Part shown: piece by piece, positions 41,917 through 55,357 of the stretch
Position numbering within the stretch: the first letter of the stretch is position 1
Layout of the letters: the number at the start of each line of letters is the position of its first letter
Source: Sphingomonas sp. QA11
GTDB lineage: Bacteria; Pseudomonadota; Alphaproteobacteria; Sphingomonadales; Sphingomonadaceae
DNA length: 64,000 nt
Reading direction: 5' to 3'
Assembly: GCF_028473665.1 (NCBI RefSeq)
Contig: NZ_CP098774.1
Coordinates: 4,893,501-4,957,500 of the forward strand
The notes under the pieces: generated by a model
What the model was told of the DNA's origin: nothing
Databases searched by the model: none
Seen by the model: the letters and a program-made list of their open reading frames with translations, nothing else
Translations under genes and position numbers: made by a program

Positions 41917-44900
41917 GTGATTCACAACACTTTAATCGCGCAGAAACTGCGCCTTCTCGCCACGGTCGCGCCGATGTCGCTCGCGCTCGTGGCGTCGCCC
42001 GCCTTCGCGCAGGCGACCGCGCCGCATACCGACACGACCACGACTACGGCTGAGGAAGAGCCCGAAACCATCGTCGTCACCGGGTCGCGCATCCGCCAGC
42101 CCAACGCCGATTCTCCGGTTCCGATCACGACCGTCACCGGGGAGCAGATCTTCCAGACCGGCCGCATCTCCGTCGGCGACGTGCTGAACCAGATGCCGCA
42201 GCTCCGCACCTCGCTCGGGTCGCAGAACTCGACCTCCGGCCTGGGCACGCGCGGTCTCAACTTCCGTGATCTGCGCGGCCTTGGCCGCTCGCGCACGCTG
42301 GTGCTGATCAACGGCCGTCGTCAGGTGACTGCCGACATCATCAACAATGGCAACGCGGTTGATATCAACACGCTGCCGACCGACCTGATCGACCGGATCG
42401 ACATCGTGACCGGCGGCAACTCGTCAATCTACGGCTCCGACGCGATCGCCGGCGTGGTGAACTTCATCATCAAGGACAATTACGACGGGTTGCAGCTCCA
42501 CGCCCAAACTGGCGTCAGCAAATATGGCGATGCCGGCAACCAGTATATCTCGCTGGTCGCGGGCAAGAATTTCGCTGAAGGTCGCGGGAACATCGCGATC
42601 AACGCCGAATTCGCGCATCAGCAGGATTACTACGCCTCGGGTCGCCCGAACCTGCGCCAGAACGACAATTTCGTGGTCGTCGACACTGACATTGGTGCGT
42701 CGTCAGACGACGTCATCGACCGGGCCTTCTATCGCGATATCCGCAGCTCGACGATCTCGCTCGGCGGCCAGCTCGGTTTCCGTTATGGCAACGCTGGCGC
42801 ACCATGCGGTAATGACGCGCTCGGCAATTCGTTCACCTGCAGTTTCCTTTTCCAGCCCAATGGTAGCCTCGTCAATCAGACCGGGTTGCGCGTTGGCCTT
42901 GGCCCGAACGGCAACTTCGTGAACGGCAACGGCATGACCGGTCGTGAAGACAAGCTCGTGGTGCTCTCGCCGGATCTGAAGCGCTATGTCTTCAACGCCG
43001 TGGGGCATTTCGAGATTTCTCCGGCGTTCGTGCCCTTCTTCGAAGCGAAATATGTGCGGACGGAAGCGTTCGGCTCGCAGAGCGGCCCGTTCTTCTCGCA
43101 GGGGCAGACGCTGGGAGATTTCCTTGGAGGAACGGGTCTCGTCGATCGTTCCTATGCGAATAGCGGGGGCAACACCCAGTTCGTGAACCGCGAGGGCATT
43201 CGCCTCGACAACCCGTATCTGTCGGACGCGGCGCGGGCCACCATCACGCAGCAGCTGACTGCGGCGATCAATTCGGGCGTGAACCCCAACACCGGCGCGC
43301 TGTACCTGCCGGCCAATGCAACGCCGGCGCAGATTGCTGCGGCTCCCGTCAATAAGGCCGCGGCCCTGGCGCAGGTCCAGGCCGGCACCTTCCGGTTCTC
43401 GCTCCGTCGCAACTGGGTGGACCTCGGCACGCGTGACGAGCAGATCAAGCGTGATACCTTCCGCGTGGTTGCCGGTATCCGGGGTGATTTCAACACCGAC
43501 TGGAACTACGAAATCTCGGCGAACTACGGCGAGCACAAAGAGAACAACATCATCACCGGCAACGTCAACACGCAGCGGTTCCTGCTGGCGATTGACACGA
43601 CCAAGAATGCCGCCGGCCAGATCGTCTGCCGTTCGCAGGTCAACCCTGTCTATGCTGGTGAGGATGTCGCTGGTAATGCTGCGCAACTTGCCAAGGATGT
43701 CGCGGCTTGCGTTCCGCTGAATCCGTTCGGCCAGGGCAGCGTGAGCGATGCGGCCAAGGCCTATCTGCTCATGCCGACCACCGCGAGCGGCAAGGCGACC
43801 CAGTTCGTCGCAAGCGGCTTCGTGTCGGGTAATCTGGGGCAGTTGTTCCAGCTGCCTGGCGGCCCGGTCGGCTTCTCGGTTGGTGGTGAATATCGCCGGG
43901 AGACGCTGCGCTACGATCTGGATCCGATGACCCAGGCTGGCTACGCCTTCTACAACGCGATCCCGTCCTTCAGGGCCCCTGCCTTCGAAGTGAAGGAAGC
44001 TTTCGGCGAGGTCTCGATCCCGCTGGTCAAGGACGTTTTCCTGCTGAAGGAACTGACGGTCAACGGTTCGGCTCGTGTGGCTGACTATAAGGGGAGCGTG
44101 GGCACTGTGTTCGCCTATAGCGGCGACGTGACGTGGCGGCCGATCAGCGACCTTCTGCTGCGTGGCTCCTATTCCAAGTCGGTACGCTCGCCGTACCTGG
44201 GCGATCTCTATTCGGTTCCCGGGCAGAACTTCACGCCCGCGCCGAACGATCCCTGCTCCGCACGCAACATCGGCACGGGCTCTTCGACCCGCGCCGCCAA
44301 CTGCGCGGCTGCAGGCATTCCAACGAGCTATGACTATGTCTTCAGCCAGTCGCTGGAAATTCGCAGCGGCGGCAACCCGAACCTGAAAGCTGAAAAGTCC
44401 ACGTCCTGGACTCTCGGCGGCGTCTATCAGCCGAGCTTCGCGCGCGGCCTGATGGTGTCGGTCGATTATTACGACATCACCGTCAGCGACGTGATCACCT
44501 CGCCGACGGTGCAGAATGCGCTGAACGCGTGCTACGATGCGCCGTCGCTGTCCAATCAGTTCTGCGCGCTGTTCAAGCGTGACGACGCGGCCGGCACCGT
44601 TTCGGGTACGCCGTACCGCATCCTCGACGGCACCTTCATCGACAGCCCGCAGAACTACGCCAAGCTGAAGGCACGTGGTATCGACACCCAGGTCGCTTTC
44701 AACCGCGACTTCGGTTTCGTGAAGGCGAACGTGAAGGGCGTGTGGACTCATGTCATCCAGCGTGACGAGTTCACCGATCCGTCGCGGCCGACCTTCAAGA
44801 ACGTTCTGACTGACGAGCTGAACTATCCTTCGGATGCCTTCAACATCAGCACTGATCTGAAGTTCGGCAAGTTCACCATCGGGCACACGCTGCGCTGGCT

Positions 44901-45177
44901 GGACGGAATGTACCTCAACACGTGGGAAGACTATAACGCGGTCAATGGCCAGCCGCCGCAGAACCCGGATTATGCACCGATCAAGAAGTATCCGGCTGTC
45001 ACCTACAACGACATCCGCGCGAGCTATGACGTGACCGAGAAGTTCAACTTCTACGGCGGCGTCACCAATATCGGTGACGTCAACCCACCGTACGGCCTCA
45101 CCGGTGTCGGTGCCGGCTCGGGTATCTACGACAACCGTGGTCGCTTCTTCTACATGGGCGCAACCGCCAAGTTCTGA
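41917..45177 (+). CDS. TonB-dependent receptor 1
   Basis: 1086 aa from the GTG at 41917, with GAGGGAAAA upstream and a signal peptide ending LVASPAFAQ. The TonB box region is ETIVVTGSRI, the plug follows (PVPITTVTGEQIFQTGRISVGDVLNQMPQLR ... RTLVLINGRRQV ... IDIVTGGNSSIYGSDAIAGVVNFIIK), and the 22-strand barrel ends with a C-terminal aromatic, RFFYMGATAKF. It takes up an unknown substrate. An in-frame ATG at 41773 would add 48 residues before the leader and is unlikely. The Sel1/2OG hydroxylase gene follows after a terminator. Confidence 0.93.
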   Translation: MIHNTLIAQKLRLLATVAPMSLALVASPAFAQATAPHTDTTTTTAEEEPETIVVTGSRIRQPNADSPVPITTVTGEQIFQTGRISVGDVLNQMPQLRTSLGSQNSTSGLGTRGLNFRDLRGLGRSRTLVLINGRRQVTADIINNGNAVDINTLPTDLIDRIDIVTGGNSSIYGSDAIAGVVNFIIKDNYDGLQLHAQTGVSKYGDAGNQYISLVAGKNFAEGRGNIAINAEFAHQQDYYASGRPNLRQNDNFVVVDTDIGASSDDVIDRAFYRDIRSSTISLGGQLGFRYGNAGAPCGNDALGNSFTCSFLFQPNGSLVNQTGLRVGLGPNGNFVNGNGMTGREDKLVVLSPDLKRYVFNAVGHFEISPAFVPFFEAKYVRTEAFGSQSGPFFSQGQTLGDFLGGTGLVDRSYANSGGNTQFVNREGIRLDNPYLSDAARATITQQLTAAINSGVNPNTGALYLPANATPAQIAAAPVNKAAALAQVQAGTFRFSLRRNWVDLGTRDEQIKRDTFRVVAGIRGDFNTDWNYEISANYGEHKENNIITGNVNTQRFLLAIDTTKNAAGQIVCRSQVNPVYAGEDVAGNAAQLAKDVAACVPLNPFGQGSVSDAAKAYLLMPTTASGKATQFVASGFVSGNLGQLFQLPGGPVGFSVGGEYRRETLRYDLDPMTQAGYAFYNAIPSFRAPAFEVKEAFGEVSIPLVKDVFLLKELTVNGSARVADYKGSVGTVFAYSGDVTWRPISDLLLRGSYSKSVRSPYLGDLYSVPGQNFTPAPNDPCSARNIGTGSSTRAANCAAAGIPTSYDYVFSQSLEIRSGGNPNLKAEKSTSWTLGGVYQPSFARGLMVSVDYYDITVSDVITSPTVQNALNACYDAPSLSNQFCALFKRDDAAGTVSGTPYRILDGTFIDSPQNYAKLKARGIDTQVAFNRDFGFVKANVKGVWTHVIQRDEFTDPSRPTFKNVLTDELNYPSDAFNISTDLKFGKFTIGHTLRWLDGMYLNTWEDYNAVNGQPPQNPDYAPIKKYPAVTYNDIRASYDVTEKFNFYGGVTNIGDVNPPYGLTGVGAGSGIYDNRGRFFYMGATAKF

Positions 45178-45195
45178 TCGATCGCAGGACATTGA

Positions 45196-45231
45196 AGGGC
45201 CGGAGGAATTATCCTCCGGCCCTTTTTTTTT
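45196..45231 (+). terminator. Rho-independent terminator after receptor 1
   Basis: Perfect 12-bp stem AGGGCCGGAGGA / TCCTCCGGCCCT with a 4-base loop followed by a run of eight or more T. It ends the receptor transcript and lies 28 bases before the start of the hydroxylase gene. Confidence 0.92.
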
Positions 45232-45258
45232 GGTGTTCAATTCCGGTAGGAAGGAACG

Positions 45259-46236
45259 ATGTCGGAAACCCCCGTGGCCCTCGCCAACAAACTGGTCGCA
45301 TCAGGGGCGATCACTGACGGTATCGCATTGCTGACCCGGGCCGCCGATGCGGGCGACGTCGATGCCCTGATGCAGCTCGCCGTGTGGCATCTGGTGGGGA
45401 ACCCGGTCCCGCGGGACCTCGTCAAGGCGCGTGCGTTGCTGCGCCGGGCCGTTTCGATCGGCCATGTCGATGCGGCGCTGATGGAGGTCGCGCTGACCGC
45501 CAATGGTAGTGGGTGCGTGCCAGACTGGGCTGCCGCGCTGGAGCTTCTGCGCGCCGCTGCCCTGGCCGATCCGGTAGCGGGGGGGCAGTTGAGGCTGCTC
45601 GACGCGATGAAAATCGATGCGAAAGGCCATCCCCTGGTCTTGCCCGAACCTGAAATGCTCGGTGCCGGTTCCGGCATCATGCGTTTTCCGAGGCTGTTCA
45701 CGCCGGAGGAATGTGCCCATGTCGCGACTGTCGCGGCCGATCTGCTTGAACCAGCCCGCGTGATCGATTCACGCACCGGCCGCTGGATCGCTCACCCCGT
45801 CAGGACAGCGGAGGATGCAGTGATCGGCCCGACGCGCGAGGATCTGGTGGTGCAGGCGCTGAACAGGCGCATCGCCGCGGCGAGCGGTACCGAGGCCGGC
45901 CAGGGCGAATCCCTGGCGGTCCTGCGCTATCGCCCCGGGCAGCAGTTCAGGCTGCACTCGGATATCCTGCCCAACACCCGGAACCAGCGCGTCGCGACGG
46001 TCCTCGTCTATCTCAACGAGGGGTTCGAAGGCGGGCGGACGACGTTTCCGGCGTACCGGCTGGACATCAGGCCCCGGGCCGGGGACGCGATCGTGTTCAG
46101 GAACGTCGACTCGAACGGGTCGCCCGATCCCTCGAAGCGCCACAGCGGCGAACCGGTGGTTCGCGGCACCAAATGGCTGGCAACCCGCTGGATACGGGCC
46201 CGCGCTTTCTCACCCTGGGATGGCCCGGAAGCCTGA
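45259..46236 (+). CDS. 2OG-Fe(II) oxygenase, prolyl-4-hydroxylase type with Sel1/TPR-like N-terminus
   Basis: 325 aa. The N-terminal third has Sel1-like helical repeats (GDVDALMQLAVWHLVGNPVPRDLVKARALLRRAVSIGHVDAALMEVAL). The C-terminal 180 residues are a P4H domain: iron ligands His and Asp in FRLHSD (about 231), the distal His in SKRHSG (about 294) and the 2OG-binding Lys in RGTKW (about 302). It probably hydroxylates a proline or other residue in a peptide or protein. RBS GTAGGAAGG. It lies between the two receptors. Confidence 0.92.
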   Translation: MSETPVALANKLVASGAITDGIALLTRAADAGDVDALMQLAVWHLVGNPVPRDLVKARALLRRAVSIGHVDAALMEVALTANGSGCVPDWAAALELLRAAALADPVAGGQLRLLDAMKIDAKGHPLVLPEPEMLGAGSGIMRFPRLFTPEECAHVATVAADLLEPARVIDSRTGRWIAHPVRTAEDAVIGPTREDLVVQALNRRIAAASGTEAGQGESLAVLRYRPGQQFRLHSDILPNTRNQRVATVLVYLNEGFEGGRTTFPAYRLDIRPRAGDAIVFRNVDSNGSPDPSKRHSGEPVVRGTKWLATRWIRARAFSPWDGPEA

Positions 46237-46315
46237 CGCAAGTCAGATTGGCGCGATACGTCGATCCGGGGCGGAGCCTTTACGGGCGGGCGGGGTGTTC
46301 CTCCGCTGCCCATCT

Positions 46316-46840
46316 TCACATGACGCGCTTCACCCGAACGCCTGGGGCTCCTCCCACGCGCATCATGAAGCTGCCCAGGCTCGCACGCCGCACGACAACG
46401 TCCAGCCCAGGCTTCGGTTCGCGAATGAACGGTTTGGTGTCGATCTGTCGCCACATCGATCCGTCAGCCAACCCGACGATCCATCCGTCGGTTCCGTCGC
46501 GTGCGGAAGTGATTCTGGATTCGATCTGCCCAACATCTTCATTGTCGTTGCCGGCAAATAGCTTGAAGCTCGGTAATGTCAGGCCGAACAAGGAGCGTTT
46601 CGCGCCACGTATCTGTTCCTTGTCGATGATTACGACGTTCTTCGCAGCTTCCGCGTCGGCGAGAGCTGCCACTTCGCGATCGTAACATGCGAGACGGGCG
46701 GCGGTATCGGTTATCGCACGACAATCGATCAGATGCTGAAATACCGGTGCGCGCGCAGGCGCTGGCTCATCCCGCGCGATGGCAGGATACGCCGCCAATA
46801 AAGCGGCCAGGAAAGCGGTTGCGAACTTGATGCTTTTCAT
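46316..46840 (-). CDS. Small periplasmic protein of unknown function
   Basis: 174 aa from MKSIKFATAFLAALLAAYPAIARDEP, a good signal peptide; a longer frame upstream of 46840 is not credible. The mature part has FQHLIDCRAITDTAARLACYDREVAALADAEAAKNVVIIDKEQIRGAKRSLFGLTLP and GQIESRITSARDGTDGWIVGLADGSMWRQIDTKPF. Two cysteines lie ten residues apart (DCRAI ... LACYD). The pattern recurs in sphingomonads but has no named function. It is divergent from receptor 2. Confidence 0.75.
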   Translation of the reverse strand: MKSIKFATAFLAALLAAYPAIARDEPAPARAPVFQHLIDCRAITDTAARLACYDREVAALADAEAAKNVVIIDKEQIRGAKRSLFGLTLPSFKLFAGNDNEDVGQIESRITSARDGTDGWIVGLADGSMWRQIDTKPFIREPKPGLDVVVRRASLGSFMMRVGGAPGVRVKRVM

Positions 46841-46861
46841 AATGGTTACAATTTCATCATT

Positions 46862-46879
46862 GTTGCAACGGCGCAACAG
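46862..46879. promoter_or_regulatory. Candidate operator between the periplasmic protein and receptor 2
   Basis: TGTTGC and GCAACA form an inverted repeat separated by 6 bases, in the shared upstream region. A perfect 8-bp palindrome GTTGCAAC lies inside it. Similar words precede receptor 3. Whether a regulator binds is unknown. Confidence 0.25.
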
Positions 46880-47027
46880 TAAAAGGCAATTTTCACAACT
46901 GCCGCACAAGCCGTTTACAGCGCAAGTCCCCACAGGCACTGACGAATACATCGTCGGGAGTGGGCTCCGGGCCTCTCCACGACATCAATCCGCGCGGTCA
47001 CCGCGCGGCAAGAAAGGAAACGGGGAA

Positions 47028-50000
47028 GTGAGCAAACTAGCAAAGATATCGATGCTCAAGGCTGGCACAGCGCCAATCGTTCTTGGGCTCGCGCTGCTGT
47101 CGGCCCAGGCCAACGCTCAGACCGCCGATGCGGCGCAAGCGAGCACGCTGCCTGCCGATCAGCCCGCCGCGGCTCCAGGCGGCGACATCGTCGTCACCGG
47201 ATCTCGCATCCCGCAGATCAATCTTGAATCGGTTAGCCCGATCACTGTCGTGACAGCGCAGGACATCAAGCTTCAGGGGACGACGCGAGTCGAGGACCTG
47301 ATGAACTCGCTCCCGTCGGTGTTCGCCAGCCAGAACTCGACCAGGGCCAATGGTGCCGACGGCACCGCGACGGTCGATCTTCGCGGTCTCGGCACCACGC
47401 GTACGCTCTCTCTTGTCAACGGCCGTCGTCTGCTGCCGGGCGATCCGAGCCCGACCAGCGGTTCGGCCGCCGACATCAACATCATTCCTGCCTCCGTCCT
47501 GAAGCGCGTCGAAGTGCTGACCGGCGGTGCGTCGTCGACCTATGGCGCTGACGCCGTCGCCGGCGTTGTGAACTTCATCATCGACACCGACTTCACCGGC
47601 ATCAAGCTGGACGGCCAGTACAGCCTTTTCCAGCACGACAATCGCGACAAGTTCCTGACGCCGCTGCTCGATGCACGCGCGGGCGCGGGACTTCCGGGAT
47701 ACGGCTATCCCAAGGGCAGCGTTGCTGATGGCGGCGCCGTTGACGCGACGCTGACGATCGGTTCTGGCTTCGATGACAATCGCGGCCATGCCGTCGCCTA
47801 TTTCGGCTATCGCAAGGTCAACGCGATTTTGCAGGCCAATCGCGACTACAGCGCCTGCGTGCTTCAGAACACACGTGCCGGCGGTGTGCAGTGCGGCGGT
47901 TCCGCGACCTCGGACAACGGCAACGTCTTCCTGTTCAACAACGCGGTCACCGTCGGTACCTCGACGGCCTTTACCTTCCGGCCGGGCGGCGGCTTCGTCA
48001 ACGGCACGTCGCTCTACAACTTCGCGCCGACCAACTATTATCAGCGCCCTGACGAGCGTTACACTGCCGGCCTGTTCGCGAACTACGAGATCAACGATTC
48101 GATCAAGCCGTATCTCGAGTTCATGTTCATGGACGATCGCACCGTGGCGCAGATCGCGCCGTCGGGCGATTTCGGCAACACGCTGACCCTGAACTGCGAC
48201 AACCCGCTGATGTCCGCGACGCAGCGCGCCGTGGTCTGCTCCCCGGAGAACCTCATCAACGGCTATCTCGGCAACTTCCCGACCGCCCAGGGAGCGCCGT
48301 ATAATCCCAATCCGAACGCGCCCCCGATCAACTTCGTCGACTCGCAGGGCCGGGTCTACAATCAGGGCTTCTTCCAGTTGCTGCGCCGCAACGTCGAGGG
48401 TGGCCCGCGCCAGTCCGACCTGCAGCACACCAACTTCCGCGCGGTGATCGGCACCAAGGGCTCGCTGGGCAGCGCCTGGTCCTATGACACCTATTATCAA
48501 TATGGCCGCTCGAACTATTCGCAGGTCTATTCGAACGAGTTCTCCGTCGCGCGGCTCAACCGGGCGCTGAACGTCGTCACCGACAACCGCGCGGGCAGCT
48601 CGACCTTCGGCCAGCCGGTCTGCCGCTCGGTCATCGACGGCAGCGATCCGAACTGCGTGCCCTACAACGTCTTCGGCGGCGCCGGCGCGGCGAGCCCGGC
48701 ATCGGTTGCCTATCTCTCGGCAACGGGCTTCCAGAAGGGGCAGACCTCGGAGCAGATCGCCAGCGCTTCGCTGACCGGCGCACTGGGCCAGTATGGCGTC
48801 AAGAGCCCCTGGGCCGATGATGGCGTAGCGATCAACCTCGGCGTCGAATGGCGCAAGGAATCGCTCGAGCTGCAGACCGACAACGCCTTCCAGACGGGCG
48901 ACCTGACCGGCCAGGGTGGCAAGACGCTGCCGCTGTCGGGCAATTTCAGGGTGCTGGAGTTCTTCGGTGAGACCCAGGTTCCGATCGTCCATGACGGTTT
49001 CATCAAGGATCTGTCGCTGAACGCCGGCTATCGCCGTTCGTCCTACAAGACGAGCGCAAACAAGAGCTACGATACCGACACCTGGAAGGTCGGGCTCGAA
49101 TTCGCGCCGATCCGCGATATCCGCTTCCGCGGCACCTATAACCGCGCGGCGCGCGCGCCCAACATCCAGGAACTGTTCGCGACGCCGACCGTCGGTCTCG
49201 TCGGCAGCAGCGATCCCTGCGCCAAGTCGATCACGGCCACCGACTATGGCTGTATCGCACAGGGCTTCACCGTCGGCACGGGCACGGCGAGCAACCCGGC
49301 AGGCCAGTATAACGGCCTGATCGGCGGCAATCCCAACCTGAGGCCGGAAATCGCGACCACCAAGACGATCGGTGTCGTGATCCAGCCGAGCTTCCTGAAG
49401 CGCTTCTCGCTGACGGTCGACTACTTCGACATCAAGATCAAGGACACGATCAGCGCGACCAGCCAGGACGCGGTCCTCAAGGATTGCGTCGCCAATGCGA
49501 CGGCGACCTTCACGCCGATTTCGTGCGGACTCGTCCATCGTGACGCGGCGCGGTCGCTGTGGTTGACGCCCAATGGTTACGTCAACGACATCCCGAGCAA
49601 TATCGGGAGCACCCAGACCAAGGGTATCGAGGTCAGCTCTGCCTTCGCGCAGAGTCTCGGCAGCATCGGTAACCTCAACCTGAGCATGACGGGCACCTAT
49701 CTCGACAGCTATCGGACCGACAATGGCATCACGCAGCCCTATGACTGCGCCGGCTATTATGGTCCGACCTGCAGCGCGGGCGGCACCACGAACAGCGGCG
49801 CCCCGCTTCCGAAATGGCGTCACAAGGCGCGTGCAACCTTGCAGACTCCGATGGGAATCGGCTTCTCGCTGCAGTGGCGCTACATCGGCCCGGTCCAGGC
49901 CGAGACGCTCCAGAAGAACAACCAGTCGCTCAACGGCGCGTTCAACTATGATCCGGGGCTTCACATCAAGGCGTACAATTATTTCGACCTGGCGGCGTCG

Positions 50001-50201
50001 TTCAGCGTTGGTGACAATTACAACTTCCGCCTGGGCATGAACAACGTCTTCGACAAGCAGCCGCCGTATGTCACGTCGGGCAATGGTGGTCGTGACGGGT
50101 CGAACCTGTGTCCGTCGGGGCCCTGCAGCGGCAATACCTATCCCGGCACCTATGATGCGCTGGGCCGCTACCTCTATGCAGCGGTATCTCTGACCTTCTG
50201 A
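47028..50201 (+). CDS. TonB-dependent receptor 2
   Basis: 1057 aa from the GTG at 47028, preceded by AAGGAAACGGGGAA. Signal peptide LKAGTAPIVLGLALLSAQANAQ. TonB-box/plug: GDIVVTGSRIPQINLESVSPITVVTAQDIKLQGTTRVEDLMNSLP and VEVLTGGASSTYGADAVAGVVNFIID. The barrel ends DALGRYLYAAVSLTF. The plug resembles that of receptor 1, which points to related ligands. The sulfotransferase series follows after a terminator. Confidence 0.94.
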   Translation: MSKLAKISMLKAGTAPIVLGLALLSAQANAQTADAAQASTLPADQPAAAPGGDIVVTGSRIPQINLESVSPITVVTAQDIKLQGTTRVEDLMNSLPSVFASQNSTRANGADGTATVDLRGLGTTRTLSLVNGRRLLPGDPSPTSGSAADINIIPASVLKRVEVLTGGASSTYGADAVAGVVNFIIDTDFTGIKLDGQYSLFQHDNRDKFLTPLLDARAGAGLPGYGYPKGSVADGGAVDATLTIGSGFDDNRGHAVAYFGYRKVNAILQANRDYSACVLQNTRAGGVQCGGSATSDNGNVFLFNNAVTVGTSTAFTFRPGGGFVNGTSLYNFAPTNYYQRPDERYTAGLFANYEINDSIKPYLEFMFMDDRTVAQIAPSGDFGNTLTLNCDNPLMSATQRAVVCSPENLINGYLGNFPTAQGAPYNPNPNAPPINFVDSQGRVYNQGFFQLLRRNVEGGPRQSDLQHTNFRAVIGTKGSLGSAWSYDTYYQYGRSNYSQVYSNEFSVARLNRALNVVTDNRAGSSTFGQPVCRSVIDGSDPNCVPYNVFGGAGAASPASVAYLSATGFQKGQTSEQIASASLTGALGQYGVKSPWADDGVAINLGVEWRKESLELQTDNAFQTGDLTGQGGKTLPLSGNFRVLEFFGETQVPIVHDGFIKDLSLNAGYRRSSYKTSANKSYDTDTWKVGLEFAPIRDIRFRGTYNRAARAPNIQELFATPTVGLVGSSDPCAKSITATDYGCIAQGFTVGTGTASNPAGQYNGLIGGNPNLRPEIATTKTIGVVIQPSFLKRFSLTVDYFDIKIKDTISATSQDAVLKDCVANATATFTPISCGLVHRDAARSLWLTPNGYVNDIPSNIGSTQTKGIEVSSAFAQSLGSIGNLNLSMTGTYLDSYRTDNGITQPYDCAGYYGPTCSAGGTTNSGAPLPKWRHKARATLQTPMGIGFSLQWRYIGPVQAETLQKNNQSLNGAFNYDPGLHIKAYNYFDLAASFSVGDNYNFRLGMNNVFDKQPPYVTSGNGGRDGSNLCPSGPCSGNTYPGTYDALGRYLYAAVSLTF

Positions 50202-50229
50202 TCCTTCGATTTAAGGATCGTTCTTTCTG

Positions 50230-50263
50230 GGGCGGCGATCTTCGGATTGGCCGCCCTTTTTTT
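50230..50263 (+). terminator. Rho-independent terminator after receptor 2
   Basis: GGGCGGC (50230-50236) and GCCGCCC (50250-50256) form a stem with a 13-base loop, followed by seven T residues. It separates receptor 2 from the sulfotransferase gene, which starts about 55 bases later. Confidence 0.85.
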
Positions 50264-50316
50264 ATCCCGGCGTTGCTTCGGGATTGCATTGGCGGGGCGG
50301 GGCGGTCCAGACTGAT

Positions 50317-52332
50317 ATGGTGGCAAGCGTTCCAATGCTAGATTCCGACACGGCCGAGACCCTCCGGCAGGCAATCGACGCCGCCCGGGCGGGCGATGTC
50401 CCGCGCGCGCGGTCGCTTGCCGAGGCGGCCTTGTTGCGTGGGGGCGATCTTGTTGCCCTCAATGCCTTTCTCGGCATGTTGCGGAGCCGCGCGGGGGATG
50501 CGGGGGGGGCGATCACGCATCTGCGGGCGGCGCATCGCCATCGACCGGGCGACGCCACCATCGCGTGCAATCTCATCGCGGCATTGATCGAAACGGGTGA
50601 CCAGGCAGGTGCCCTCGACATTGCCGGCCGCGATCTTGCTTTCGCCGATCCGTCGCTGCGCGTGGCTCGCTACCGGGGTTTCCTCGCCCAGTCGCTCGAG
50701 CAATTCGAGGCGTCGGTCGAGGCCTATGATCATGTCGTGGCGCGTGCGCCGAATGATTTCGAGAGCTGGAATAATCTCGGCAATGCCCGTTCGGGTCTGG
50801 AGGACTATCCCAGCGCCGTCGCGGCGTTGAAACGCGCCGTCGAGCTTGATCCGCGTGCGGCACCGACCCGGCTCAACCTTGCCCTTGCACTCCGCTCGGC
50901 CGGAGAGGCGGCGGAGGCGGAAGCCGTCCTGCGCAGGGCTGCCGAGGATTTCCCGCAGGACGATCGCGCGCTGAACGAACTCTACCTCCAGCTGCGGCTG
51001 GACGGACGATATGACGACGCGCTCCCGGTCATCGAAGAGGCGGTCGCGCGCAATCCGGAGAATGGCGACCTGCAACTGAAGCTCGGCGTCGAATGCGGGC
51101 TGGCGCGCCGGACCGAGGATGCACTGCGCGCCTTCAGCAAGGCCATCGCGCTCGATCCGACGCTGGTGGACGCCTATCTGGGGCTCGCGATCCAGTATGA
51201 ACATACCAACCGCGAGGAGGGGTTTGCGCCGCTGATCGCGCTGGCGACGGAGAATGGGATCGGCGAGGGGCCGCTGGCGTTCCTGCGCGCGCTTGAGCAT
51301 CGCCGGGCCCAACGGTTCGAGGAGGCACTTGCCTGTCTCGCGCTGGTTCCGCCGGATATCGAGCCCGAGCGTACGGTGCATCTTCGCGCGATGCTTCTCG
51401 ATCGCCTCGGCCGGATCGACGAGGCCTTCGATGCCTTCCGGCAATTCGCCCAGTTGCTCCAGGAGGGGCCGACCGATCCCCTACGCCGCGGGGCCGAGCT
51501 GCGCGACGAATTGCGCGGGGAGCTTGACCTGCTCACGCCCGGCTGGCCCGCTACCTGGTCAACGGCGCGGGCGATTGCCGATGGCCCCGATCCGGTGTTC
51601 CTGGTGGGGTTCCCCCGATCGGGGACGACGTTGCTCGATACGATCCTGATGGGCCACCCCGGAACGGTGGTGACCGAGGAACAGCCGCCCTTGAATCTGG
51701 TCGACAAGGCGATCGGCGGTCTTGCTGCGATCCCCACGCTCGACGAGGCGGCGATCGCCCGCGCGCGGGCGCATTATTATGAGGAGATGGCGAAGGTCGG
51801 CACGGTCCCGAATGGCCGGCTGCTCATCGATAAATCGCCGCTGTTCCTCTACAAGGTGCCATTGATCCAGCGCCTGTTCCCCAACGCGCGTTTCATCCTG
51901 GCCCTGCGCCATCCCTGCGATGTGCTGCTCAGCTGCTTCATGAGCAGTTTCCAGCTCAATAACGCGATGGCCAATTTCCTGCGCCTGGAGGACGCGGCCG
52001 ATTTCTACGACCTGGTCTTCAGGCATTGGGAACGGTCGCGGGAACTGTTCCCGGTACAGATGCATACGATCGTCTACGAACGGCTGGTCGACAATGTCGA
52101 AGCGGAAGTTCGTCCCCTGTTCGATTTCCTGGGGCTCGACTGGCATGAGGATGCGCTGGACCACCGCCGCACGGCACTGTCCCGGGGCCTGATCACCACC
52201 GCGAGCTACTCGCAGGTCATCGAGCCGATCTACAAGCGCGCGTCGGGTCGCTGGGAGCGGTACCGGCAACATTTGGAGCCGATCCTGCCGACGCTCGAAC
52301 CCTGGGTCGCGAAATTCGGCTATTCGCTTTGA
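50317..52332 (+). CDS. TPR-repeat sulfotransferase
   Basis: 671 aa. The first 400 residues are TPR repeats (for example FESWNNLGNARSGLEDYPSAVAALKRAVELDPRAAPTRLNLALALRSAGEAAEAEAVLRRA). The C-terminal domain is a PAPS-dependent sulfotransferase: 5'-phosphosulfate loop FLVGFPRSGTTLLDTIL near 428, ILALRHPCDVLLSCFMSSFQ for the 3'-phosphate site, and KRASGRWERYRQHLEPI near the end. It resembles tyrosylprotein sulfotransferases. The start is uncertain (ATG 50317 or 50335, TTG 50284). It is followed by an overlapping hydroxylase gene. Confidence 0.92.
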   Translation: MVASVPMLDSDTAETLRQAIDAARAGDVPRARSLAEAALLRGGDLVALNAFLGMLRSRAGDAGGAITHLRAAHRHRPGDATIACNLIAALIETGDQAGALDIAGRDLAFADPSLRVARYRGFLAQSLEQFEASVEAYDHVVARAPNDFESWNNLGNARSGLEDYPSAVAALKRAVELDPRAAPTRLNLALALRSAGEAAEAEAVLRRAAEDFPQDDRALNELYLQLRLDGRYDDALPVIEEAVARNPENGDLQLKLGVECGLARRTEDALRAFSKAIALDPTLVDAYLGLAIQYEHTNREEGFAPLIALATENGIGEGPLAFLRALEHRRAQRFEEALACLALVPPDIEPERTVHLRAMLLDRLGRIDEAFDAFRQFAQLLQEGPTDPLRRGAELRDELRGELDLLTPGWPATWSTARAIADGPDPVFLVGFPRSGTTLLDTILMGHPGTVVTEEQPPLNLVDKAIGGLAAIPTLDEAAIARARAHYYEEMAKVGTVPNGRLLIDKSPLFLYKVPLIQRLFPNARFILALRHPCDVLLSCFMSSFQLNNAMANFLRLEDAADFYDLVFRHWERSRELFPVQMHTIVYERLVDNVEAEVRPLFDFLGLDWHEDALDHRRTALSRGLITTASYSQVIEPIYKRASGRWERYRQHLEPILPTLEPWVAKFGYSL

Positions 52333-53486
52333 CGGCGGATGTGGGATCACTGCTCGCCGAAGCGGATCGCGCTTCGGCGTCGCAGGATTTCACGCGGGCG
52401 CAGGCGCTGCTCCGGGATGCGGCGGGGATTGAACCGCAGGATCTTTCCATCCTCCTGAAACTCGCAGGGGTGAGCCGGGCTGCGGGCCAGCCGCGCGTGG
52501 CGCTCGACGCCGTGCACCGCGCGCTCGCCGTCTCCCCGCTGGACTTCACCGCGCTGCTAATGCGGGCAACGCTGCTGGATCGCCTGGGTGACGAGACAGC
52601 GGGAGAGGCGTGGGGCCACGCGCTTGCCCAGAGACCGCAGGCCGCGCCGCCGCCGCAGATCGCGGTGGTGCTCGAACAGGGCGAGCGCCGATATGCCGAA
52701 TGGCTCGATCGGCGGGAAGCCAGGCTGAAGGCTGGCATGGCCGAAGTGGAGCAGCGCGCCGACGAAGAGGAGCGCACGCGTATTGCGCGCTTCCGGAACA
52801 ATGTATTGCGCAGGACGCGTCCTTATCACAGCGAGCCGACCCATTTTCACTTTCCCGGTCTGGTGGAGCGCGAGTTCCATCCGCGGCGCCATTTCGACTG
52901 GCTCGATACGCTGGAAGCGGCGACCGACATGATCCAGGAGGAATTCGAGACGGTGATGGGGGCCGAACGGGCCGAGCTCGTCCCCTATATCCAATATGCT
53001 GACCATCTCCCGCTTCGCCAGTGGCAGCCGCTCAACCACAATGCCGACTGGACGGCGATTCATCTGTGGCAGAACGGGCGGCAAATCGAGGCCAATGCCC
53101 GCCATTGCCCCCGCACGATCGATCTCCTCTCCCGGCTCCCGCAACCGGCGATCCCCGGGGCTTCTCCCAACGCAATGTTTTCCTTGCTCGCGCCCGGCAC
53201 CGTCATTCCCCCGCATGTCGGCGTCAGCAACGGCCGGCTCGTATGCCATCTCCCGCTGGTGGTTCCGGAGGGCTGCTGGTTCCGGGTCGGCGCTGAAACG
53301 CGTTTCTGGCGCCGGGGAGAAGCCTTTGTGTTCGACGATACGATCGAGCATGAGGCAGCGAATCCGAGCGACCAGCTCCGCGTCGTCCTTATCTTCGATA
53401 TCTGGCATCCGGATCTAACCGCGATCGAGCGCGAGGCGGTCGCGGCGCTCATCGCAGCAGACGGTGCCGCGGCAAGCGGACTGTGA
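52329..53486 (+). CDS. Aspartyl/asparaginyl beta-hydroxylase with TPR N-terminus
   Basis: 385 aa. Helical TPR-like repeats (ASQDFTRAQALLRDAAGIEPQDLSILLKLAGVSRAAGQPRVALDAVHRALAVSP) precede an AspH domain with the first iron ligand in PPHVGVSNGRLVCHLPLVVP (about 297) and the second in FDDTIEHEAANPSDQLRVVLIFDIWHP (about 342). AspH enzymes hydroxylate Asp or Asn in target peptides. A TTG start overlaps the sulfotransferase stop (TTGA, 52329-52332); a GTG at 52341 is an alternative. Confidence 0.9.
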   Translation: MTADVGSLLAEADRASASQDFTRAQALLRDAAGIEPQDLSILLKLAGVSRAAGQPRVALDAVHRALAVSPLDFTALLMRATLLDRLGDETAGEAWGHALAQRPQAAPPPQIAVVLEQGERRYAEWLDRREARLKAGMAEVEQRADEEERTRIARFRNNVLRRTRPYHSEPTHFHFPGLVEREFHPRRHFDWLDTLEAATDMIQEEFETVMGAERAELVPYIQYADHLPLRQWQPLNHNADWTAIHLWQNGRQIEANARHCPRTIDLLSRLPQPAIPGASPNAMFSLLAPGTVIPPHVGVSNGRLVCHLPLVVPEGCWFRVGAETRFWRRGEAFVFDDTIEHEAANPSDQLRVVLIFDIWHPDLTAIEREAVAALIAADGAAASGL

Positions 53487-54994
53487 CCTTTTCGTCCCGG
53501 CTCGCTGCGGCTCGGCTGGGACAGGCGGATGCGAGCAGCCTCGCCGAACTGGCGGAACTCGCGCTCGATGAGGGTGAGGAAGAACAGGTCCTTCCCCTGC
53601 TGACTCGCGCGGCGGCGCAAGGGGCCAACGCTCAATTATGGCAATGGACCGGATTGCTCCAGCGGGCGCTGGACGAGCATGCGGCCGCATCACAGTCCTT
53701 CGCGCAGGCCGCACGCCTGGCGCCGGCCGTGGCAAGCATCGCCCATGGCCGTGCCCATGTGGCCCTTGAAGCTGGTCTGGACTCAGTCGCGCTGTTCGAA
53801 CAGGCGCGCCGTCTCGCGCCGGCGAACGGGGCGATTCTGCTCGGACTGGCCGCCGCGCGCCTGGCGGCGGGTCGTGGGGAACAGGCGGCGGCCGAGCTCC
53901 AGGCGATTCTGGATCGAGAGCCGAGATGGATTCACGGCCATCTGCAATTGGGCCAGATTCAATCGATGCTCGGGCGGCCCGAAAGGGCGACTCATTCTCT
54001 CGATCAGGCACTCGAACGCCTCCCGGGCGAAAGAGCGTTGTGGCAGGGCCTGTTCGATCTTCATGTGCGCAGCGAGAATTATGCCGGCCTGCAGGAGGCG
54101 CTGCAGCGAGCCGGGAAAGCGGGGCATGGACAGGACGTCCGCGCCGAATATGAGGCGATCGCGGCCGCGGAACTGGGGGAAGACGATACCGCCACCGTCC
54201 TGTTCGACAGCGCTCCCGCCTCCGCCCGGCCGCGCCTTGCGCTCTGGCGGGTCCGTCATCTGCTGAGAAGCGGCAGGGCAGCGGATGCCGTCACGCTCAT
54301 CGATCGCGAACTGGCGACGGATCGTGCCGTGGCCATGTGGCCCTATGCCGCCGCCGCCTGGCGGTTGACGGGCGATCCCCGCAGTGCGTGGCTGGAGGAT
54401 TCGCCGGATCTCGTCGCGGTGGTGGATCTCGGCCCGGCGTTGCCGGCGTTGGAGAGGCTGGCCGATCGTCTGCGCTCGCTCCACGTGGCGAAAGGACAAT
54501 ATCTGGATCAGTCGGTTCGTGGCGGGACTCAAACCGACGGCCCGCTTCTCAGTCGTATCGATCCGGAGATCCGGGCCATGCGCACGGCGATCGAGCAAGC
54601 TGTCGCGCGCTATGTCGCCCAGCTCCCGCCGCCGGATGCCAGGCATCCGCTCCTTGGTGCACGGCGCGACCGTCGAATCCGCTTCACCGGCAGCTGGTCC
54701 GTTCGGCTTCGCGGCGGCGGATTCCATGCCAACCACGTTCATCCACAGGGCTGGATCAGTTCAGCGCTGTATATCGCGCTTCCCTCGCGCCAGTCGGACG
54801 AACTGGTACAGGCTGGCTGGCTGGCATTGGGCGAACCTCAGGCCGCGTTGAAGCTTGATCTGGCGCCCAGTCGGCTGATCGAGCCGAAGGCAGGCAGGCT
54901 GGTGCTGTTCCCCTCATGGATGTGGCACGGGACGCGCCCCTTTGCTGAGGGGGAGAGGCTGACGGTCGCGTTCGATGTCGCGCCGCCGCGCTGA
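53483..54994 (+). CDS. TPR protein with putative 2OG-Fe(II) oxygenase domain
   Basis: 503 aa from a GTG that overlaps the AspH stop (GTGA, 53483-53486). The N-terminal 320 residues are TPR repeats. The C-terminal part fits the putative 2OG-Fe(II) oxygenase family (Pfam Tpr/2OG): GSWSVRLRGGGFHANHVHPQGWISSALYIALP (about 410-440) with a His cluster for iron, and GRLVLFPSWMWHGTRPFAEGERLTVAFDVAPPR with distal His and Arg. The second oxygenase of the coupled series; its substrate is unknown. Confidence 0.88.
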   Translation: MTFSSRLAAARLGQADASSLAELAELALDEGEEEQVLPLLTRAAAQGANAQLWQWTGLLQRALDEHAAASQSFAQAARLAPAVASIAHGRAHVALEAGLDSVALFEQARRLAPANGAILLGLAAARLAAGRGEQAAAELQAILDREPRWIHGHLQLGQIQSMLGRPERATHSLDQALERLPGERALWQGLFDLHVRSENYAGLQEALQRAGKAGHGQDVRAEYEAIAAAELGEDDTATVLFDSAPASARPRLALWRVRHLLRSGRAADAVTLIDRELATDRAVAMWPYAAAAWRLTGDPRSAWLEDSPDLVAVVDLGPALPALERLADRLRSLHVAKGQYLDQSVRGGTQTDGPLLSRIDPEIRAMRTAIEQAVARYVAQLPPPDARHPLLGARRDRRIRFTGSWSVRLRGGGFHANHVHPQGWISSALYIALPSRQSDELVQAGWLALGEPQAALKLDLAPSRLIEPKAGRLVLFPSWMWHGTRPFAEGERLTVAFDVAPPR

Positions 54995-55084
54995 AACCTT
55001 TCGATTGTCGCGCAGAAATATATGGCCATTCCGGACGGTCTGCGGCAGATTTCCTGTCCTATCAACATCCCGAAAGGATCGCTT

Positions 55085-55357
55085 ATGAGTCCCGTCTTCC
55101 GAGTTGCCTTGTTGGCGGCGATCGCCAGCCTCATGCCGGCGCCGCTGGCTGCAGAACAGAAGAACGATGCAGGAACGGCGTCGAAGAAGCGCGATCCGAA
55201 CCAGATGGTTTGCGAGAACCAGGAGGTTCTGGGCAGCCGATTGGCGGTCAAGAAGATCTGCATGACGCGAAGCCAATGGGCGGAGCAGCGCCGCGTCGAC
55301 CGGGAGACGGTCCAACAGTCGCAGGTCAGTGGTTGCGGGAGGAAGGTGGGTTGCTGA
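55085..55357 (+). CDS. Small secreted protein with four cysteines, unknown function
   Basis: 90 aa from the ATG at 55085, which has AAAGGA upstream. Signal peptide PVFRVALLAAIASLMPAPLAAEQ, then a charged mature part with DPNQMVCENQEVLGSRLAVKKICMTRSQWAEQRRVDRETVQQSQVSGCGRKVGC. The VC..(x13)..C spacing and CMTRSQW motif recur in small sphingomonad proteins of no known function. It lies 90 bases after the oxygenase and before a terminator, so it probably belongs to the same transcript. Confidence 0.8.
   Translation: MSPVFRVALLAAIASLMPAPLAAEQKNDAGTASKKRDPNQMVCENQEVLGSRLAVKKICMTRSQWAEQRRVDRETVQQSQVSGCGRKVGC

Follow-up and report, generated by a model that had tools for sequence, protein, structure and literature searches.

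TonB-dependent receptor genes and their putative cytoplasmic sulfotransferase and hydroxylase partners in Sphingomonas sp. QA11 and related bacteria

The DNA analysed here (the window) is a stretch of 64,000 nucleotides from Sphingomonas sp. QA11 (RefSeq assembly GCF_028473665.1, contig NZ_CP098774.1, positions 4,893,501 to 4,957,500 of the forward strand). This report is centred on the part in which two TonB-dependent receptor genes are interleaved with four enzyme genes and two genes of small secreted proteins, called mk and sm (Table 1). A first-pass annotation, made from the letters alone, proposed one single system in this region: a P4H-type (prolyl 4-hydroxylase) enzyme, a sulfotransferase with tetratricopeptide repeats (TPR), a TPR aspartyl/asparaginyl beta-hydroxylase (AspH type) and a TPR 2OG-Fe(II) (2-oxoglutarate- and iron-dependent) oxygenase would bind a common partner and modify the receptors, a small secreted protein or an imported peptide. 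Reading frames and Pfam matches confirm all the named genes at the positions given, and the two small proteins are taken to be sm and mk. However, the genes constitute two units and not one. Gene identities, intact catalytic residues, predicted folds, the conserved pairing of receptors with enzymes and the covariation of enzymes with receptor subtype were established by computation. From them we propose receptor-centred units with cytosolic enzymes that modify side chains; the neighbouring TonB receptor is the most likely substrate, and to this proposal we give slightly less than an even chance.

Table 1. Genes and features of the two units (window coordinates; E-values of Pfam matches)
Feature	Position	Strand	Evidence
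TonB-dependent receptor 1 (unit 1)	41917-45177	+	Pfam Plug 5e-21, barrel 9e-30
P4H-type 2OG-Fe(II) hydroxylase, Sel1-like N-terminus	45259-46236	+	PF13640, 8e-15
mk, small secreted protein of 174 aa, divergent from receptor 2	46316-46840	-	
TonB-dependent receptor 2 (unit 2)	47052-50201	+	Plug 7e-22, barrel 2e-35
Receptor-2 hairpin NKSYDTDTWK, residues 670-679	49059-49088	+	alignment; extracellular side inferred
TPR sulfotransferase (alternative start 50284)	50335-52332	+	PF13469, 3e-33
TPR aspartyl/asparaginyl beta-hydroxylase (AspH type)	52329-53486	+	PF05118, 2e-44
TPR 2OG-Fe(II) oxygenase, PF13759	53483-54994	+	2e-21
sm, small secreted protein, signal-peptide-like start	55085-55357 (longest frame from 55022)	+	

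The last three enzyme genes overlap by four bases (52329/52332 and 53483/53486) and for this reason look translationally coupled; after sm comes clpB, identified by eye, on the opposite strand. None of the four enzymes has a signal-peptide-like start in its translation and, since 3'-phosphoadenosine 5'-phosphosulfate (PAPS) and 2-oxoglutarate are found in the cytoplasm, all four should act there. Helical repeats are present in the four proteins, as had been claimed, the P4H one being marginal (Sel1 30.1 bits against a Pfam cut-off of 30.7).

The tyrosylprotein sulfotransferase (TPST) character ascribed to the sulfotransferase, including a PSB-type (phosphosulfate-binding) loop, is supported by sequence and predicted fold. 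Its catalytic domain matches human TPST1/2 at 3e-12, and the model (mean predicted local confidence, pLDDT, 93.7) superposes on TPST1 with Z 21.6 and a root-mean-square deviation (rmsd) of 2.7 over 244 residues, which is the TPST fold, and on the TPR domain of OGT with Z 25.8 and rmsd 6.1 over 345. The protein is predicted by this model to be an OGT-like TPR superhelix fused to a TPST-type catalytic domain. PRSGTTL, which we take to be the PAPS-binding loop, and E449 are invariant in 30 aligned relatives, and E54 in 21; the invariant Glu aligns with the TPST glutamate, presumably catalytic. Three TPRs have Asn at helix position 6 (residues 79, 147 and 181, kept in 15/21, 26/30 and 23/30 rows, respectively), and the substrate-binding Asn ladder of OGT sits at the same helix position in the available text of PMC5967971. 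The nearest named relatives, among the matches listed, are from Sphingomonas. The four scanned members of another family of the genus, STx, gave no Pfam match at E<=0.01; profile comparison shows this family to be a diverged sulfotransferase (probability 93, E 4e-7). In STx (L068:10627-11649 and relatives) an FHSAFCCST-type loop replaces PRSGTT, and one STx frame (G110:C1:43185-44195) is broken by a single TGA, through decay or sequencing error.

The hydroxylase is likewise AspH-like by sequence and predicted fold, in agreement with its first description. It scores 151.7 bits with PF05118 against a gathering cut-off of 22.6, and its PDB matches at E<=0.01 are AspH in 11 of 11 cases (best 7e-30). 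The model (pLDDT 91.7) has the TPR plus oxygenase architecture of AspH: it superposes on the oxygenase domain of human AspH with Z 21.9 and rmsd 2.3 over 191, and its residues 1-375, with both domains, on 6yyu with Z 22.0 but loosely (rmsd 12.4 over 305), so that the domain packing may differ. H296, H307, H341 and R351 are invariant in 20 relatives aligned with human AspH, in which, as we assume, two His bind iron and an Arg binds 2-oxoglutarate. Hydroxylation of Asp/Asn in a polypeptide is the putative activity. Besides, a second group of TPR-AspH genes stands alone (L074, L076, L077, L079, L080, L083, L084, L087 and L088; L-, G- and C-numbers are our loci, genomes and contigs) amid housekeeping-type neighbours, none labelled as a receptor: the same enzyme is put to another use there. 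For the PF13759 oxygenase, weak matches to the uncharacterised structures 2rg4 and 3bvc were the only ones reported. The P4H-type protein matches P4H structures at 3e-23 to 6e-20, and the HxD...H...K motif of the P4H domain is read in it.

Unit 1 was followed in 101 genomes of the genus, its own included. There are 31 receptor-1 matches in 30 genomes (E<=1e-250) and 40 P4H matches in 36 genomes (E<=1e-30). Directly downstream of 29 of the 31 receptors, on the same strand and after a gap of 75-126 bp, lies the P4H gene; the two receptors without it are in G030 and G102, and 11 P4H matches have no receptor-1 match at that threshold. In G071 and G033 the pair is far from the receptor-2 locus, and among the 77 receptor-2 loci described below, read in six frames, only that of the window contains P4H. 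Receptor 1 and P4H are therefore an independent pair which lies beside unit 2 by chance here: the grouping of P4H with both receptors holds for receptor 1 and fails for receptor 2. As the pair travels separately and the enzyme sets differ among species, the idea of a single system whose enzymes share a TPR partner is not supported. The two-gene pair offers a minimal system for a direct test.

For unit 2, mk was used as anchor, in order not to choose loci by their enzymes. This protein has a sub-threshold VasI match, and its relatives are found near receptors in other named loci. At E<=1e-12 it occurs at 85 places in 73 of 121 genomes of the genus, from which 78 were read (left out were G018 C4, both places of G095 and the second places of G082, G100, G116 and G123). 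L137, where mk was not called, was dropped, resulting in 77 loci, in all of which mk is divergent from a receptor-2 orthologue. Seventeen mk loci also came from the hydroxylase search, all of them mk places, and L072, L078, L086 and L091 stand outside the 77-locus table; L020-L022 do not figure in the row listing. The enzymes were labelled by six-frame searches, and sulfotransferase class (A or B) by the best match to exemplars; as eight loci are cut by the locus end, the enzyme counts are lower bounds. At least one of five enzyme families is found in 54/77 loci. AspH is present in 43, the sulfotransferase in 25 (class A/B in 19), STx in 16, PF13759 in 21, a TauD type in 6 and sm in 32. A sulfotransferase of either kind accompanies AspH in 31/43 loci, against 3/34 loci without AspH, and PF13759 is found with class A in 13/14, against 8/63. 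Kinship is not taken into account in these tables. When independent pairs are drawn from trees, they go in the same direction and nearly never in the opposite one, although such pairs are few.

The enzyme cassette is mostly located between receptor 2 and clpB, and hence linked to both alike. On trees built with the hairpin columns of the receptor left out, enzyme labels change less often on the receptor tree than on those of the flanking genes. Compared with ClpB (43 loci), the changes are 7/10 (receptor/flank) for AspH, 2/9 for STx, 3/8 for class A/B, 5/8 for PF13759 and 6/12 for sm; with mk (68 loci), 8/10, 4/7, 5/9, 7/9 and 7/11; and with XseA (36 loci), 7/9, 4/6, 4/6, 5/8 and 7/10, in the same order. 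Enzyme content follows receptor subtype better than it follows flanking genes, with one exception given below. Part of this better fit may be due to the receptor being a longer and more variable protein.

A visible companion of AspH within the receptor is the hairpin of Table 1, called long when the aligned stretch has at least 17 residues (a limit chosen after the alignment had been seen). It is long in 36/43 loci with AspH and in 5/34 without. Of 8 independent pairs on the ClpB tree, 5.8 agree with this and none is opposed (median p 0.03). Four long-hairpin loci without a local AspH (L140, L141, L142 and L147) belong to G110, G066, G009 and G061, respectively, where AspH and STx lie side by side elsewhere in the genome: from the cassette of G009 (L081) such enzymes were predicted for the other three genomes, and they were found in all of them. 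Among the other 27 genomes of this elsewhere-enzyme test, six have an AspH match. The AspH of G071 is inside the locus, that of G135 is elsewhere and that of G027 is of the stand-alone type (L084); in G082, G116 and G123 AspH and STx are near a second mk match. The same is seen in G024 and G018, where a second long-type receptor is also present (L063, L067), and the second mk match of G022 has STx nearby but no AspH. For the fifth long hairpin (L128), the genome (G129) gave no AspH at E<=1e-30; the hairpin has Ser where Asp/Asn is usual, which is suggestive only, because other residues also occur there with AspH. On the other hand, the hairpin is short despite AspH in seven loci (L112, L119-L122, L143 and L156).

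Beyond the genus, a search pattern built from an alignment of the sulfotransferase domain with other members of its own genome and genus was run against named genomes, and the loci of the best 80 relatives (of more) were read in all six frames. In 36 of these 80 loci a receptor is found at up to 4 kb, and in 25 at up to 600 bp; because some contigs are short, these numbers may be too low but not too high. By a hand estimate (one receptor match per 49 kb), about 1 in 5 random genes would have a receptor at up to 4 kb. The proportion is 18/18 in Sphingomonadales, 8/9 in Lysobacterales, 5/6 in Gammaproteobacteria without order, 2/3 in Caulobacterales, 1/1 in Nevskiales, 1/10 in Alphaproteobacteria without order and 1/6 in those without class. 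In Pelagibacterales (0/7), Rhodobacterales (0/4), Hyphomicrobiales (0/4), Synechococcales (0/3) and the rest of the 80 no receptor was found at that distance, so the sulfotransferase family has other uses. The conserved neighbourhood on which the first-pass annotation made its proposal depend therefore extends far beyond this genome and, together with the TPST-like and AspH-like enzymes, it supports a receptor-linked function in protein modification. As a further case of a hydroxylase with a receptor, small PF13640 oxygenases lie beside a TPR sulfotransferase and a TonB receptor in Nevskia, [Pseudomonas] boreopolis and Luteimonas (L212:10836-11342, L214:11345-11932 and L222:10762-11376).

In the own genome (5.58 Mb) there are 113 TonB-receptor barrel matches (two fall below the cut-off, and one gene is counted twice) and five TPR sulfotransferases with strong PF13469 matches, each of which neighbours a surface or secreted protein. 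Their placement near receptors is taken to exceed chance. Those of the window, 1.35 Mb and 2.44 Mb adjoin a receptor directly; that at 4.77 Mb has a receptor two genes away, with a second sulfotransferase and two PF05118 proteins alongside; and that at 0.775 Mb comes after a protein of the filamentous-haemagglutinin family and a Hint protein. This last set (L019:56-9465, C1 ~0.766-0.775 Mb), with a haemagglutinin-family protein of at least 1971 aa and a Hint_2 protein upstream of the TPR sulfotransferase, is a possible adhesin sulfation unit. In the same genome, a lasso-peptide-like set (L020:7143-16736, C1 ~3.423-3.433 Mb) contains PqqD, Transglut_core3, asparagine synthase, a weak HPr-kinase match, a Sulfotransfer_1 protein, a second weakly sulfotransferase-like protein and a PF05118 hydroxylase, next to short genes, one or more of them with a phage tail-collar domain; its product may be a peptide carrying sulfate or hydroxyl groups.

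The small protein sm gave no Pfam or NCBIfam match at E<=0.1 and no PDB match at E<=1. Its core is C-x6-GS-x7-C...W, and five residues (C, G, S, C and W) are invariant in 26 sequences, with no invariant Tyr. One divergent sm-like gene was seen among the named loci (L162). In the best 80 sulfotransferase loci sm was detected in 7 of the 18 from Sphingomonadales and in none of the other 62, which leaves the receptor as the common factor outside this order. No substitute for sm qualified among the unlabelled neighbours lying at most two genes from the enzyme, grouped in 25 of the 80 loci: the recurrent small neighbours are mk relatives (six genes in five loci, one of which is from a gammaproteobacterium), and a protein of 168-204 aa in three loci proved to be a PF13640 oxygenase. 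Twenty further sm places, selected by score, were read, an own-genome paralogue among them. Six of them (L246, L248, L249, L253, L255 and L258), two being tandem pairs, have no receptor nearby and, save for a TauD-type gene in L258, no enzyme either, and sm thus has a use of its own.

According to the mechanism that we propose, the TPR (or Sel1) superhelix would grip a still-unfolded exported protein in the cytoplasm, where the fused catalytic domain would add sulfate (TPST type) or hydroxyl (AspH, P4H and PF13759 types), and the modified product would be exported by Sec. The substrate would be the neighbouring TonB receptor, probably in surface loops such as the subtype-specific hairpin, and in Sphingomonadales sm could either be modified as well or act as a partner of the modified receptor; receptor and sm may both be substrates. 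The receptor accompanies the enzymes constantly, in two bacterial classes as well as in the pair of receptor 1 with P4H; within the genus, the sulfotransferases usually occur with sm. The cytoplasmic location, the binding of an unfolded protein, the identity of the substrate and any effect, on the choice of ligand or on escape from phages and bacteriocins, are parts of this scheme that we infer.

Several results weigh against the receptor as the substrate. In 23/77 loci receptor 2 is found without any of the enzymes, so it does not need them, and two AspH + STx + sm cassettes (L081 and L257) have no receptor in the 19.9 kb read, although the L081 genome holds the matching receptor subtype. On the trees, the exception mentioned above is the pooled sulfotransferase label in the XseA comparison (7 changes for the receptor, 6 for XseA), and on the 36 XseA loci STx does no better than shuffled labels. 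The association of AspH with the hairpin is not significant on the receptor tree (median p 0.5), the hairpin is one of several sites that mark the subtype, and the four genomes with a cassette elsewhere look closely related and may count as one event. Finally, no residue suited to sulfation or to Asp/Asn hydroxylation stands out in receptor 2 with any of six labels.

Related to this last point, among 22 residue classes the rank of Tyr varies from 6th to 20th and that of Asp/Asn from 5th to 15th; Pro is 2nd with PF13759, but 1st with AspH, where it was not expected. A columnwise signature (Tyr with ST, Asp/Asn with AspH, Pro with OG5) was discarded: p values were small, yet other residues did as well or better, so the columns mark receptor subtype and not a site. 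These residue tests used gene-caller labels instead of six-frame labels, without AspH in L099 and L143, OG5 in L099 and L126, TauD in L058 and L069 and sm in L148. Acidic-Tyr motifs per receptor are 0.81 against 1.77 beside long sulfotransferases and 2.81 against 1.25 beside STx, differences that may reflect only subtype. Receptors with AspH have more Cys (11.2 against 9.7), in the same direction in independent pairs, where it is not significant.

Other explanations can be considered for the same genes. It is possible, although rather unlikely in our opinion, that sm is the true substrate, modified in the cytoplasm, exported by Sec and then bound or re-imported by the receptor, as in methanobactin systems. 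Its companionship with sulfotransferases is tight: sm is present in 26/29 loci with class A/B or STx against 6/48 without (odds ratio 61; 26/28 against 5/49 under gene-caller labels), two very different sulfotransferase families both accompany it, and it is kept in the two cassettes that lack a nearby receptor. Methanobactin operons, with TonB transporters and, in two of them, a sulfotransferase (available text of PMC3621798), are a precedent. The link of sm with sulfotransferases weakens with phylogeny (median p 0.06 to 0.25 on three trees), sm is absent from 15/43 AspH loci and was detected in none of the 62 sulfotransferase loci outside Sphingomonadales, five of the further sm places have neither enzyme nor receptor nearby and a sixth has only the TauD-type gene, and the sm of the window has no Tyr. 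The enzymes could instead make a peptide of the ribosomally synthesised and post-translationally modified kind (RiPP-like) from a precursor encoded elsewhere, and the receptor would import the finished product. A receptor with tailoring enzymes is indeed the layout of metallophore gene sets such as methanobactin, but among the cluster genes scanned there was no exporter, protease or recognisable RiPP core enzyme, and TPR superhelices, judging from OGT, suit long unfolded substrates; we consider this improbable. In general, an imported peptide is the least supported of the three candidate substrates, since the enzyme types are biosynthetic ones and those genes include no recognisable peptide importer.

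Envelope lipids or glycans would be the substrates, with only an indirect link to the receptor, if the hydroxylase worked like LpxO or OlsC. It does match the models of OlsC (82 bits, cut-off 450) and LpxO (62 bits, cut-off 500) weakly, but its structural matches are all AspH, the TPST match spans the sulfotransferase domain, and other, shorter PF05118 proteins of the genome, one of 269 aa, could serve lipids, so this proposal also seems unlikely. Least probable of all is that the receptor-clpB stretch is an insertion hot spot gathering unrelated genes. Its content varies between fixed flanks, and all five enzyme families are missing from the 23 loci already mentioned; nevertheless, the same few families recur, associate non-randomly, follow receptor subtype and appear beside receptors at other sites and in another bacterial class, and a hot spot is hard to reconcile with the receptor 1-P4H pair (29/31).

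The enzyme families and the receptors are already known, and operon-encoded modification of a surface protein has precedents. The recurring pairing suggests an undescribed chemical decoration of the receptor or of its secreted partner. No publication was found on TonB receptors paired with TPR sulfotransferases or AspH, on an OGT-TPR/TPST fusion beside receptors, on the receptor-P4H pair or on the tracking of subtype, in a literature search with bioRxiv preprints and most subscription journals outside its scope. Our wider proposal, more tentative than that on the substrate, is that in sphingomonads and lysobacters TonB receptors are sulfated and hydroxylated prior to secretion by dedicated, co-encoded TPR enzymes of the cytoplasm, with surface loops that co-evolve with the enzyme set. 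If so, outer-membrane receptors would have a writer system that tunes ligand choice or hides them from phages and bacteriocins. Should receptors or their secreted partners bear such groups, the many sphingomonad TonB receptors would gain a chemical diversity invisible in sequence. Protein sulfation and Asp/Asn hydroxylation are seen mainly as chemistry of the animal and plant secretory pathway, and few examples from bacteria are known to us (RaxST). The consequences would extend to nutrient uptake, to the entry of phages and bacteriocins and to envelope proteomics, in which searches seldom include +80 and +16 Da.

Compared with known systems, the window hydroxylase shares with human AspH the TPR and oxygenase domains and the active-site His and Arg residues, but it is bacterial, without an anchor seen and with no EGF-type protein recognised nearby. 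The sulfotransferase has the TPST-type catalytic domain and invariant Glu of TPST1/2, which are Golgi-resident, and the TPR superhelix of OGT; unlike in those enzymes, both domains are fused in one protein. The TibC/Aah heptosyltransferases act in the cytoplasm, and we know of no TPR superhelix in them. In the available text of PMC3835316 they are encoded in operon with the autotransporters TibA/AIDA-I, which they glycosylate. The enzyme genes described here are similarly encoded with a putative surface-protein substrate, whose modification is predicted; the differences are that sulfate or hydroxyl would be added instead of sugar, and to TonB receptors instead of autotransporters. The Pfam scan of nine window proteins revealed no heptosyltransferase domain. 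The same scan gave no match of the MbnB kind (taking the Pfam family of MbnB as we assume it to be) or to a MATE exporter. Methanobactin operons contain TonB transporters and, in two cases from Methylocystis, a sulfotransferase assumed to sulfonate threonine (PMC3621798). Both layouts place a TonB transporter next to tailoring enzymes, with a sulfotransferase in those two operons, whereas here sm has a signal-peptide-like start and the receptor also occurs without the enzymes; the methanobactin layout is the nearest rival. The RaxST-RaxX system of Xanthomonas is alike in the bacterial sulfation of an exported polypeptide, which is putative here, and by description it is set apart: in the available text RaxX is a 60-residue precursor encoded in the raxX-raxSTAB cluster, and here there are receptors, sm and TPR fusions.

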